Shown here one piece after another: positions 55,290 through 58,840 of a DNA stretch of 64,000 bases (position 1 is its first letter; the number at the start of each line of letters is the position of its first letter). Origin of the DNA: Bacteroides caecimuris (GTDB lineage: Bacteria; Bacteroidota; Bacteroidia; Bacteroidales; Bacteroidaceae); the NCBI RefSeq assembly GCF_001688725.2, contig NZ_CP015401.2:3286001-3350000 (forward strand), read 5' to 3'. The notes beneath the pieces were generated by a model that saw only the letters and a program-made list of their open reading frames with translations, was not told where the DNA came from and did not search any database. The translations under genes were made by a program, and so were the position numbers.

Positions 55290-55657
55290 GAAAAATAAAA
55301 ACACATATAAGAGCCTGTTTAAATTCTCTTCAGTCATAATTTTATAGCTGATATTTTAACTTAACCCGGCTCTTCTTGTCGCGCCCGTCTGTAGTTGGCG
55401 GAAGGGGTATTAACAGTTGCGCTCTTGGCTATTAATAGAAAACTTCCCGCCCATTAAGTATAAAGTTCCTTCGGACAGGAAGGAAACTTTCTTTTCATTC
55501 GATGCAAACTATAAACGCAAGCTTTGATTATATAATTGCAAGCTTCGTTTTTATAATCAAAGCCTTTGTTTTTATAAACGAAGCTTGCGTTTATAGATTA
55601 CGGTTAATGAAAAATAAGTTTACATACTGATAATAAGAAGTTTACAATTAATGAAAG
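55290..55657. other. Gene-free region with an element remnant and palindromic array
   Basis: No gene is supported. AGAGCCTGTTTAAATT at 55310-55325 is repeated inverted at 55837-55852 (see repeat). A mosaic palindrome array is at 55509-55596. TTAATGAA-type words lie at about 55606, 55649 and 55671. The insertion target of the IS begins at 55658. Confidence 0.6.
55509..55596. repeat. Nested palindromic word array (GCAAGCTT-type)
   Basis: CTATAAACGCAAGCTT at 55509-55524 pairs exactly with 55581-55596 (16 bp). Inside are CTTTGATTATA (55522-55532) and its inverse (55552-55562). A third pair is CAAGCTTCG near 55539-55547, complementary to part of 55579-55587. The three pairs are mutually exclusive or nested, so several folds are possible. 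Confidence 0.7.
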
Positions 55658-55694
55658 AGAACTTTTCTATTAATGAATGAAAAGTGGGTTATTA

Positions 55695-55852
55695 AGAGCC
55701 TGCTCCGAGTTTTGCCCGACACAGTTTTGAGAGTTGCTTTCGAGTATATTTTCTGTTGTTGTGAGCAGCAGCATGACGGAGACTATGTGACGAATAAAAA
55801 CTGGTCGGTAAAGCCTATCTAACATAATCTCAGGAAAATTTAAACAGGCTCT
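55695..55852. repeat. MITE-like 158-bp element, left copy
   Basis: The ends AGAGCCTG and CAGGCTCT are inverted repeats. The second copy is at 57909-58066 because of the IS duplication. It encodes no convincing protein; the minus-strand 70-codon frame that runs into it is unlikely to be a gene. Confidence 0.5.
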
Positions 55853-55942
55853 AAGAATTTGATAGTAAAAAGATGTATCCACAAGGCTACGTCACTGCCA
55901 GACGGTCAAATTCACACATACCGAATATATACGGTGAATCGC

Positions 55943-56172
55943 TTAGCGATTCACCTCTTTTTCTATTCTCAATATCTTATCCAACGTCTTTTGAGCCTCT
56001 GTCGACGGAAACCTCAATACAACCTTCCGCAAGGAGTTCCGTGCCTTTTCGTATCCCGTAGCAAACACTTTCGACAATCCATCCCGATAACGGGCATATT
56101 GCATTTTCGTTGGCGATGATATTTTCTTATAGTCAGTCTCCAACTGCTTCTTTTCCCGCTCAGCCATCAAAT
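55943..56172 (-). pseudogene. Duplicated 3' fragment of the TPR gene
   Basis: The last ~76 codons of the gene at 58157-58840 are repeated here by the IS target duplication and are cut off at the IS boundary. The frame from a TTG/ATG near 56170 has no promoter except possibly one in the IS, so it is probably not expressed. It shows the gene was intact before insertion. Confidence 0.85.
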
Positions 56173-57871
56173 CCTGACTTTATCACTTTTTTAAAATTTT
56201 CTCATGAACCTGCCCTATAGATATCTGTAGCAGTGTTTTTAAGTCTAATTTGGGTGACGCACGGGAATTTTGTATCTTCGTGCTATGTTTGTGCGTAGGA
56301 AAAAGAATCGATCCGGTTCGACCAGTGTTGTCGTCGCCGATAAGAGTTCCAGTAGATTTACGGAACTCCATGTCATAGGTGTGGGTACAACCGAGGATGA
56401 AATTAGTCAACTTGTAAATGAAGGAAAGAATTGGATAGCCCATTACGGTGGACAGCAAACCATAAGCTTCCCTGATGATGAGTGTGAAAAACTAAGACGG
56501 GAAGAGAATTCAATGACTGAGTACATAGTATCCAATATAATAAGTACTTCTCTGAATTCACCTCAGAGAATCATCAATAAAGTTTACGATAAAATCGGAT
56601 TCAATATCATACAGGATGAAGAACTACGTCATCTTGTAGTATCCAGAATATGCTCTCCTATGAGCAAGAAGGCCACAGTGGATTATCTGAGACGGCATTT
56701 CAAGGAAGAGGTCAGTTTACAGAAGATTTATCGTTATCTCGATAAACTATATAATACCCAGCAGGAACTCGTGCAGGAGATAAGTGTTAAGCATACAAAA
56801 GGATTGTTTGGCGGGAATTTAGGGATACTTTTCTACGATGTCACAACCCTTTATTTTGAGACAACGAATAAGGACGAGTTACGGGAATCCGGTTTTTCCA
56901 AAGATGGTAAAAATGCAAATTCACAAGTAGTTTTAGGACTTCTTGTCAGTCGTGGAGGATATCCCTTGTCTTATTCTCTGTTTAACGGTTCACAATATGA
57001 GGGATATACAATGCTTCCCATCGTAGATGATTTTGTTCAAAGATTCAATCTCGGCAATGATTTTGTAGTAATTGCAGACTCCGGGCTTATGAGCGCAAAG
57101 AATGTAAAGCTACTCCGTGATGGTGGATATAAGTATATAATAGGTGCCAGGATAAAGAAGGAATCCGGCCGGATAATGGAGAAAATAATTGCAACAGAGC
57201 GTCGGTGTGGGGTGTTCAATGATATCAAATATCCGGATGGAGACAGGCTTATTGTTGGATACTCTGATGAAAGGGCAAAGAAGAACGCATTCGATAGAGA
57301 ACAAGGTGTGGAAAGGCTAAGAAAACGTTTTTCTAAGGGAACACTGACGAAGGCGGACATCAACAAACGAGGCTACAACAAGTTCCTTTCAGTCAGTTCT
57401 GGAATTACAGTCAGTATAGATGAGGAAAAGATAAAGGAAGATGCAATATGGGATGGATTAAAAGGGTATAAGACAAATACGGATCTAAGTCCAGAGAAAG
57501 TCTATGAAGCCTATCAGAATCTATGGAATGTGGAACGGTCGTTTCGTATTACCAAAGGTACGCTGGATGTAAGACCGATGTTCCATTTCACGCCAAGAAG
57601 AATTGAGGCTCATGTTTGTATATGTTTCGTTGCTTTGAAAGTATACAAGGAACTTGAAAGGCTATTAAAATTGTCTGGGTGTCCATACTCTGTAGATGAA
57701 ACACTCAAGATAGCCGAGACTATAGTTACTATTGAGATTGCACGTCCGGAGAATAAAGACACTATAACAAAAACTCTCTGCCTCACAGAGGAGGAGAGAG
57801 CTATAGCGTACCTCATTGATACTGATGATTGGTTAGAGTTATGATTTGGGTGACGCAATGATAAAGTCAGG
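56173..57871 (+). mobile_element. IS1634-family insertion sequence
   Basis: The element is 1,699 bp with 13-bp perfect terminal inverted repeats, CCTGACTTTATCA at 56173-56185 and its inverse at 57859-57871. It carries one intact transposase. Inside both ends is an extra direct copy of ATTTGGGTGACGCA (56248-56261 and 57844-57857). It is flanked by 515-bp direct repeats; long, variable target duplications are a known trait of IS1634, first described in Mycoplasma mycoides. Confidence 0.88.
56285..57844 (+). CDS. IS1634-family DDE transposase
   Basis: A 519-residue transposase starting at ATG 56285; the frame to 56270 needs a TTG start. The DDE triad is D185 in FYDVTTLYFET, D265 in VIADSGLMS, and E417 in NLWNVERSFRITK, the last with the Y-x2-x-x-E..K spacing of IS4-superfamily enzymes. 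The N-terminal domain (about 1-100) and the beta-rich insertion between the second Asp and the Glu are in place. No frameshift or stop is seen, so the element may be active. Confidence 0.92.
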   Translation: MFVRRKKNRSGSTSVVVADKSSSRFTELHVIGVGTTEDEISQLVNEGKNWIAHYGGQQTISFPDDECEKLRREENSMTEYIVSNIISTSLNSPQRIINKVYDKIGFNIIQDEELRHLVVSRICSPMSKKATVDYLRRHFKEEVSLQKIYRYLDKLYNTQQELVQEISVKHTKGLFGGNLGILFYDVTTLYFETTNKDELRESGFSKDGKNANSQVVLGLLVSRGGYPLSYSLFNGSQYEGYTMLPIVDDFVQRFNLGNDFVVIADSGLMSAKNVKLLRDGGYKYIIGARIKKESGRIMEKIIATERRCGVFNDIKYPDGDRLIVGYSDERAKKNAFDREQGVERLRKRFSKGTLTKADINKRGYNKFLSVSSGITVSIDEEKIKEDAIWDGLKGYKTNTDLSPEKVYEAYQNLWNVERSFRITKGTLDVRPMFHFTPRRIEAHVCICFVALKVYKELERLLKLSGCPYSVDETLKIAETIVTIEIARPENKDTITKTLCLTEEERAIAYLIDTDDWLEL

Positions 57872-58386
57872 AGAACTTTTCTATTAATGAATGAAAAGTG
57901 GGTTATTAAGAGCCTGCTCCGAGTTTTGCCCGACACAGTTTTGAGAGTTGCTTTCGAGTATATTTTCTGTTGTTGTGAGCAGCAGCATGACGGAGACTAT
58001 GTGACGAATAAAAACTGGTCGGTAAAGCCTATCTAACATAATCTCAGGAAAATTTAAACAGGCTCTAAGAATTTGATAGTAAAAAGATGTATCCACAAGG
58101 CTACGTCACTGCCAGACGGTCAAATTCACACATACCGAATATATACGGTGAATCGCTTAGCGATTCACCTCTTTTTCTATTCTCAATATCTTATCCAACG
58201 TCTTTTGAGCCTCTGTCGACGGAAACCTCAATACAACCTTCCGCAAGGAGTTCCGTGCCTTTTCGTATCCCGTAGCAAACACTTTCGACAATCCATCCCG
58301 ATAACGGGCATATTGCATTTTCGTTGGCGATGATATTTTCTTATAGTCAGTCTCCAACTGCTTCTTTTCCCGCTCAGCCATCAAAT
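57872..58386. repeat. Right 515-bp direct repeat flanking IS1634-family element
   Basis: Matching copy of 55658-56172. Beyond 58386 the sequence runs on into the intact TPR gene, while the left copy runs into the IS at 56173. This shows the order: single copy before insertion, then duplication. Confidence 0.88.
57909..58066. repeat. MITE-like 158-bp element, right copy
   Basis: Second copy of the element at 55695-55852, with ends AGAGCCTG and CAGGCTCT. It is present twice only because it lies in the IS target duplication. Confidence 0.5.
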
Positions 58387-58840
58387 AATAGTAATTCCCT
58401 AAAAAGATATTGGCAGCCAAGTTGTCCGCATCCAATTGCAATATCTTCTCATACATGCGCAGAGCATCTTTTTCTTGTCCTCGATAAACTTGCATTTCGG
58501 CACAGGGTTCGAGATAGTCTACATTATTGGGAGCCTTTTGAAGTAACTCTTTATAGAACAGATAAGCCTTGTCATAATTCCGCTTCTTCTTATAGGCAAT
58601 CGCCAGTTCATTCGCCAGATTCACGCTGATTTCACTGCTTTTGTCCACACTCGTCCAATAATACATTTCCGTGCGGTCAATATTCAGGCTGATCGTTTGC
58701 CGGAAATAGCTCACAGCCTGTCCGTGCTGCCCGATTTCGATAGCGGCAGACACTTTCTGCAACATCTCATCCACCGACTGCGCATTGAGCATCAGCGGCA
58801 ACGAAAACAATGATAAAAAGAAGATAGTTAAGGCTCTCAT
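58157..58840 (-). CDS. TPR-repeat periplasmic protein
   Basis: A 227-residue protein starting at ATG ending at 58840, with signal peptide ending LMLNAQS. The longer frame to 58969 crosses the promoter. Several tetratricopeptide-like helix pairs follow (about residues 50-165, for example KAYLFYKELLQKAPNNVDYLEPCAEMQVYRG and ALRMYEKILQLDADNLAANIFLGNYYY). These mediate protein contacts in the periplasm. It is intact; its last 76 codons are also copied upstream by the IS duplication. No specific partner is evident. Confidence 0.8.
   Translation of the reverse strand: MRALTIFFLSLFSLPLMLNAQSVDEMLQKVSAAIEIGQHGQAVSYFRQTISLNIDRTEMYYWTSVDKSSEISVNLANELAIAYKKKRNYDKAYLFYKELLQKAPNNVDYLEPCAEMQVYRGQEKDALRMYEKILQLDADNLAANIFLGNYYYLMAEREKKQLETDYKKISSPTKMQYARYRDGLSKVFATGYEKARNSLRKVVLRFPSTEAQKTLDKILRIEKEVNR

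Follow-up and report, generated by a model that had tools for sequence, protein, structure and literature searches.

In the genome of Bacteroides caecimuris, an insertion sequence (IS) of the IS1634 family lies between two exact copies of a 515-bp segment, one of which completes the 3′ end of a gene for a TPR-repeat protein. The account preferred here, with a probability of about 0.6, is a single insertion at the 3′ end of this gene, in which each end of the element chose its target separately and the host copied the 515 bp between the two sites. The locus belongs to a window of 64,000 nucleotides (contig NZ_CP015401.2 of assembly GCF_001688725.2, positions 3,286,001 to 3,350,000 of the forward strand), which is the whole stretch of DNA analysed. 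Long and variable duplications are already known for the family; to this are added a T or pyrimidine-T (YT) preference at both ends of the target, a spread of such elements over three phyla and a split between long-repeat and short-repeat branches. The features of the locus, in window positions, are listed below.

55658..56172, no strand: 515-bp target duplication, left copy (exact match to right copy)
57872..58386, no strand: 515-bp target duplication, right copy (exact match to left copy)
56173..57871, plus strand: IS1634-family insertion sequence, 1699 bp
56173..56185, plus strand: left inverted terminal repeat, CCTGACTTTATCA (end comparison)
57859..57871, minus strand: right inverted terminal repeat, the same 13 bp as reverse complement (end comparison)
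56285..57844, plus strand: transposase open reading frame (ORF), 519 residues from the ATG at 56285, or 524 if the TTG at 56270 is the start
58157..58840, minus strand: target gene, TPR-repeat protein of 227 residues, intact, crossing the right outer repeat edge
55943..56170, minus strand: truncated duplicate of the TPR gene, final 75 codons, on the left side of the IS (ORF reading)
55310..55852, no strand: 543-bp repeat element with 24-nt inverted ends, its right part forming the left portion of the duplicated target

The 515-bp repeat and its junctions

The two 515-bp segments align without a mismatch; beyond them, one further base agrees by chance on the left and none on the right. On the inside, each segment ends directly at a perfect 13-bp inverted end of the element. 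This is the geometry given in a preliminary description of the sequence, which had also read the right copy as running into an intact TPR gene and the left copy as stopping within it. The left copy indeed holds only the last 75 codons of the gene, which is intact because the right copy provides its 3′ end.

Five sister copies of the element are found elsewhere in the host genome, a single contig of 4.84 Mb. All six copies are 100% identical across positions 1–1699, and the 13-bp end sequence occurs 12 times, that is, twice per copy. The copies are flanked by exact direct repeats of 53, 40, 276, 515, 439 and 90 bp. The survey of flanking repeats proposed in the preliminary description thus returned for each copy an exact repeat of its own (40–515 bp in 6/6), and the AT-rich duplication of 5–6 bp that is the norm of the family is absent from all of them. 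The host element is therefore of the exceptional type known from IS1634 and IS1549, not a member of a different family. An exact repeat of 515 bp, together with five sister copies each having its own different exact repeat, excludes chance. An assembly artefact, with one segment placed twice around a collapsed repeat, is a very remote alternative: drafts of the survey described below do break at such repeats (scaffolds L095 and L098, with 99-bp overlaps and runs of N), but the host genome is one contig with six different exact lengths, and long repeats (~58–681 bp) are also present on seven complete plasmids from three phyla.

Whether the repeat was made by the insertion was examined through its junctions, using relatives of other species for the window, 439-bp and 90-bp copies. 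The left outer junction of the window copy (TGAAAG joined to AGAACT) is unbroken in the five other copies of the 543-bp element that were read, two in the host and three in relative G001, with 0–1 mismatches per 50 bp. The right outer junction (CAAAT joined to AATAGT), which lies in the TPR gene, is continuous in 11/11 relatives' loci read, with 0, 0 and 1 mismatches per 50 bp in the nearest ones (L047, L048 and L046, respectively) and 3–10 in the others. A tandem copy of the end of the TPR gene is present in none of nine relatives' loci. These alignments show the outer junctions of the window repeat to be ancestral and the inner ones to be new. The earlier proposal of a target duplicated on insertion is thereby upheld, since both outer junctions are unbroken in copies or relatives free of the IS, and the tandem arrangement that would speak against it is absent from the IS-free relatives. 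The companion expectation of a single-copy target in strains lacking the IS was borne out for each outer junction separately, but not in one piece, because relative G007 has a different gene at this place. At the same locus, G007 combines the left flank of the window (639 bp, 99%) with a single TPR-side copy (1306 bp, 94.7%).

Two sister copies give comparable evidence. For the 90-bp copy, a full empty site exists in relative G040, where flank, one repeat and flank align over 2902 columns at 90.8% identity. Eight more relatives have this repeat once with the right flank, the match in L279 beginning 7 bp inside the repeat, and in L275 the match covers just the left side. The outer junctions of the 439-bp copy are unbroken in different relatives, the left in G040, the right in G001 and G007. 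It could be argued that a tandem duplication existed beforehand and that the IS landed exactly between its copies, given that Bacteroides genomes hold repeats and that the duplicated segment lies partly in a repeat element found elsewhere. Such a history would, however, require six targets each with a tandem repeat bounded exactly at the IS, and with the end of the TPR gene single in the relatives read and the 90-bp site single-copy in G040, its probability is practically nil.

Repeat lengths and target steps

A transposase-profile scan of contigs from one genome per species yielded at least 80 loci, 68 of them with anchored ends. Repeats of 14–789 bp were found at 30 of these 68 loci; all 30 measured at least 14 bp, and the anchored loci devoid of a long repeat had no exact repeat of 4–9 bp either. 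More distant members of the family in Bacteroidota (transposases 28–45% identical; 20 stretches) provided eight further repeats anchored at CCTG, ranging from 45 to 629+ bp. The longest of these (L245) is cut by the start of its contig and measures at least 629 bp; the other 12 stretches had ends that were unclear, ran into contig edges or were devoid of a repeat. With two additional repeats (84 bp in L116 and 32 bp in G103) and the six host copies, the set established by ungapped comparison amounts to 46 insertions, of which 41 have exact repeats and five have repeats 95.7–99.2% identical, within the range of 14–789 bp. A gapped search contributed a 95-bp repeat with one gap (L125) and a 564-bp repeat of 99.8% identity at a locus set aside for its N (L149); if both are included, the set grows to 48 insertions and T is found at 39 of the left and 44 of the right joints; the statistics were kept at 46.

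Lengths in the set of 46 have a median of 86 bp; neither a log-normal distribution (Shapiro p 0.48 on logs) nor a shifted exponential (p 0.16) is rejected. Helical phasing of repeat length was sought at periods of 10.0–11.0 bp and was not found (n = 46). The median may lean short because short-read drafts lose long repeats; 13 repeats from the host genome and complete plasmids have a median of 102 bp. The longest exact repeat, of 789 bp, flanks an element in Bacteroidia bacterium PG1894_40 (L155:3097-6357) whose transposase has an internal stop. When the window repeat was called extreme, this was right in that it stands at the top of the range reported for the family (514 bp, PMC2266710), but repeats of 564, 629+, ~681 and 789 bp found here exceed it.

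The sequences at the joints are far from random. T occupies the last target position (−1) at 38/46 left and 42/46 right joints, against a background of 0.274 (p 9e-15 and 1e-19, respectively), and YT forms the last two target bases at 32/46 left and 37/46 right joints, against a background of 0.144. The preference is present in every length class: T is found at 15 left and 17 right joints of 17 insertions with repeats <60 bp, at 11 and 12 of 15 with repeats of 60–130 bp, and at 12 and 13 of 14 with repeats >130 bp. With one copy per genome, T is still found at 30 left and 33 right joints of 37. The 15 clean loci without an ungapped repeat (see below) have T at 11/15 joints at each end. This T is not simply part of the element, since the outer repeat copy has it too, at its far end, and since 8/46 left joints have A or C instead. 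Within the 515-bp segment, one strand has 90 YT steps and the other 75, so that the second joint was not made at the nearest acceptable site. YT at both joints would not be predicted if one target complex with a fixed stagger were at work, but would be predicted by two separate choices, one per end, and this pattern in the target sequences suggests the latter.

Possible route of insertion and its alternatives

In the route proposed, a DDE transposase with a Tn5-like fold would act without a fixed stagger. Each 3′ end of the transposon would be joined separately after a pyrimidine-T step (5′-YT^IS), the two joints falling on opposite strands, tens to hundreds of base pairs apart, with the polarity that gives a duplication. 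A host polymerase would then copy the intervening stretch from both sides, by strand displacement or at a passing fork, leaving one copy on each side of the element. Because each end would pick its own site, the length of the duplication would equal the distance between two independently chosen sites. Such a mechanism would account for repeats that are exact yet free in length, for the similar motifs at the two ends and for the absence of helical phasing. Combined with a free distance, the same target step at both ends makes uncoupled end joining a testable proposal. If it is true, the length of the duplication is a free variable set by the landing of the second end and by the reach of repair copying, and a gene end inside the duplicated stretch survives the insertion as a side effect.

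A broader reading concerns the lineage and would hold that DDE transposases distributed over at least three phyla (Bacteroidota, Campylobacterota and Actinomycetota) have lost the fixed stagger typical of other DDE transposases, with ends that choose independently and joints up to ~0.8 kb apart, following 5′-YT^ in the Bacteroidota members and another rule in Rhodococcus. For this extension the chances appear evenly balanced.

Several observations weigh against separate target choice. The first is the existence of copies without repeats. In the ungapped scan, 38 of the 68 anchored loci had no repeat of at least 10 bp, and 23 of these 38 were excluded because of short flanks or because N occurred within 1 kb. 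Loci counted as clean, with flanks of 1.5 kb or more on each side and free of N for 1 kb, numbered 40; a repeat was present at 25 of them and absent, even at 4 bp, from 15. Of these 15, the gapped search moved L125 to the repeat-bearing group and showed L184 and L195 to have repeats that do not abut the ends, so that 12/40 clean loci are free of a repeat (L133, L138, L144, L147, L165, L166, L168, L173, L174, L175, L177 and L186); two other loci with clean ends and flanks, L232 and L251, have no repeat either. The proposed mechanism does not itself explain these loci, for which the candidates are deletion-type joints, later recombination or repeats extending beyond the flanks read; none of the three could be demonstrated. 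Secondly, T occurs at only 1/8 joints, as placed, of four Rhodococcus elements with repeats of 61–147 bp, the T rule having been measured in Bacteroidota. Thirdly, the structural model of the transposase is only moderate (mean pLDDT, the predicted local distance difference test score, of 79, from 9 sequences; Foldseek template modelling (TM) score ~0.3). Finally, the support consists of sequence patterns rather than of observed transposition, and the DNA at the second joint may have been intact, nicked or replicating.

The copies without repeats could be accommodated by sister-chromatid, or hybrid-end, transposition at a replication fork, which would duplicate the target stretch on one sister and delete it from the other. 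Variable lengths would arise in this way without long strand displacement, and the 12 repeat-free clean loci, which may be target-deletion insertions, could be its deletion products. Equal numbers of duplications and deletions of unbounded size would then be expected, whereas all six host copies are duplications, none above 515 bp, and no repeat in the survey exceeds 789 bp. Moreover, no deletion could be demonstrated: when the flanks of L165 and L166 were sought in relatives, the left one alone was matched, with no right flank to compare. Hybrid-end transposition is thus considered unlikely.

Recombination deserves less credit still. Two nearby IS copies with ordinary 5–6 bp duplications on sister chromosomes, once crossed over, would also yield exact, abutting repeats without a set length, and each joint would follow the target preference of the IS. 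This requires two independent nearby insertions and a crossover for every copy, and it is distinctly improbable when 6/6 host copies have long repeats and none has 5–6 bp, and when exact repeats of 4–9 bp are absent from the 68 anchored loci. Crossover products should also span many kilobases, but lengths stop near 0.8 kb, with ~4 kb of flank scanned at most. Recombination between loci was likewise tried as the origin of the repeat-free ones and found no support, cross-matching flanks being absent among eight loci of one genome (L137, L138, L140, L167, L190, L198, L199 and L200). In L195, the 512 bp directly in front of the element are found again, at 96% identity, 2.17 kb to the right of the element's opposite end (right flank from 2172), which looks like a duplication that either grew or was interrupted by a later insertion.

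The duplication also bears on the fate of the genes hit. The repeats of 276, 439 and 515 bp end inside ORFs of at least 100 residues, and, by comparison with modelled empty sites, all such ORFs crossing a repeat end are intact when the site is occupied. The 40- and 90-bp copies are located between ORFs, and the 53-bp copy disrupts an ORF of 383 residues. The view that the insertion was gene-safe thus applies to the 515-bp copy and to two other host copies with long repeats, but not to the 53-bp copy. The reason is geometrical: duplication restores any gene whose end falls inside the copied stretch. Selection may be an added factor. Such elements can in consequence duplicate gene ends rather than destroy genes, and they can also break short-read assemblies, as in L095 and L098.

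Two of the host copies (L002 and L006, at host positions 3985076 and 2066935) have a duplicated hairpin resembling an intrinsic terminator, with the T-run at the joint, and in the 40-bp case the repeat is almost entirely the terminator-like palindrome. Targeting of terminators was considered and rejected: over 92 joints, the 46 nt up to the joint show no excess of structure over matched controls (Wilcoxon p 0.84 left and 0.41 right). With 13/92 joints in the lowest 5% of controls for structure, a terminator effect would concern at most a minority of insertions.

Known systems, transposase and neighbouring elements

The transposase matches the NCBIfam model NF033559 (transpos_IS1634) with an E-value of 1.3e-105 and 354 bits, above the cut-off of 100, and the Pfam domain DDE_Tnp_1 (PF01609). 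Residues D185, D265, E417, Y410 and K424 are invariant among nine aligned transposase sequences, and position 413 is L, not R; from their positions and from general knowledge of such enzymes, we take D185, D265 and E417 to be the DDE triad and Y410 and K424 to belong to the signature. The best solved-fold match of the predicted structure in Foldseek is Tn5 transposase (1muh; E 1.1e-5, 9–12% identity), which in this model fits a DDE enzyme of the IS4 superfamily. IS1634-family elements are described as 1500–2000 bp long with ends starting with C (PMC2266710, Table 1), in line with the 1699 bp and the CCTGACTTTATCA ends of the host element, and as having DDE residues and a YREK signature mostly without its arginine (PMC2266710).

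Long and variable repeats were, as the preliminary description stated for IS1634, already on record in this family. IS1634 of Mycoplasma mycoides subsp. mycoides SC (Vilei et al. 1999) and IS1549 of Mycobacterium smegmatis (Plikaytis et al. 1998), both cited via PMC2266710, have variable repeats of 8–514 bp, compared with a family norm of 5–6 bp, and that source noted in 2008 that a mechanistic model for these duplications had yet to be put forward. The elements described here resemble both in their IS1634-family transposase and in long direct repeats specific to each copy; they differ in their Bacteroides host, in repeats of 14–789 bp across Bacteroidota and in a YT preference measured here at both joints. 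ISPfe2 of Paracoccus (6-bp duplication, 13-bp inverted ends; PMC3281130) and ISGka5 of Geobacillus (6-bp duplication; PMC8024623) have in common with the host element the family name and a DDE transposase, and ISPfe2 also the length of the inverted ends, but their duplications are short and fixed whereas those of the host element are long and variable. Likewise Tn5/IS50 of the IS4 superfamily, the nearest solved fold, belongs to a subgroup with a fixed duplication of 8–9 bp (PMC2266710, Table 1), unlike the 40–515 bp found in the host. In a literature search that left most subscription journals outside its reach, no report was found of long-repeat IS1634 elements in Bacteroidota, nor any earlier one of the two-ended target rule, the three-phylum spread or the branch split.

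Plasmids extend the comparison beyond Bacteroidota. Of 121 plasmid records with IS1634-family matches, 24 loci were read, with seven long repeats (~58–681 bp), ten repeats of 4–7 bp (those of L292, L294, L298 and L299 being weak) and seven unclear cases. The long repeats are found in Persicobacter (406 bp), Aliarcobacter (~681 bp, one mismatch), four Rhodococcus elements (61–147 bp) and Actinomyces (58 bp). In an unrooted tree of 48 transposases, which took 19 of the 30 repeat-bearing survey loci and left out L306, IS1634, IS1549, ISPfe2 and ISGka5, one branch parts 36 rows with long repeats from nine rows with repeats of 4–7 bp (support 92/82). The split is found in 92% of 200 bootstrap trees, and none of 500 label shuffles reached as low a value. 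The long-repeat rows of Bacteroidota, Campylobacterota and Actinomycetota fall on the same side of this branch in the unrooted tree, the short-repeat side has long branches, and L305, whose repeat is unclear, groups among the long-repeat rows. Long-repeat and 4–7 bp branches offer a comparison for mapping the part of the transposase that sets the stagger. An element with a 4-bp repeat, for which the evidence is weak, lies on a Segatella copri plasmid, thus in a Bacteroidota host; this case would speak, weakly, for a repeat length set by the element and not by the host.

Two observations concern the left side of the window locus. The 543-bp element, which has inverted ends (AGAGCCTGTTTAAATT...) and a near-palindromic middle, appears to be like a miniature inverted-repeat transposable element (MITE-like), and further copies, 97–99% identical, are found in host genome regions 2649196 and 3230392 and in relative G001. 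In G007, its place is occupied by an ORF of 859 residues (L080:1937-4516 vs window 55310-55852), located between a trehalase-like gene and the TPR gene and missing from the window. Its product is presumably a glycosidase-like protein of the rhamnosidase type. The sequence comparison suggests that this gene was replaced by the 543-bp element through an element-associated deletion or replacement.

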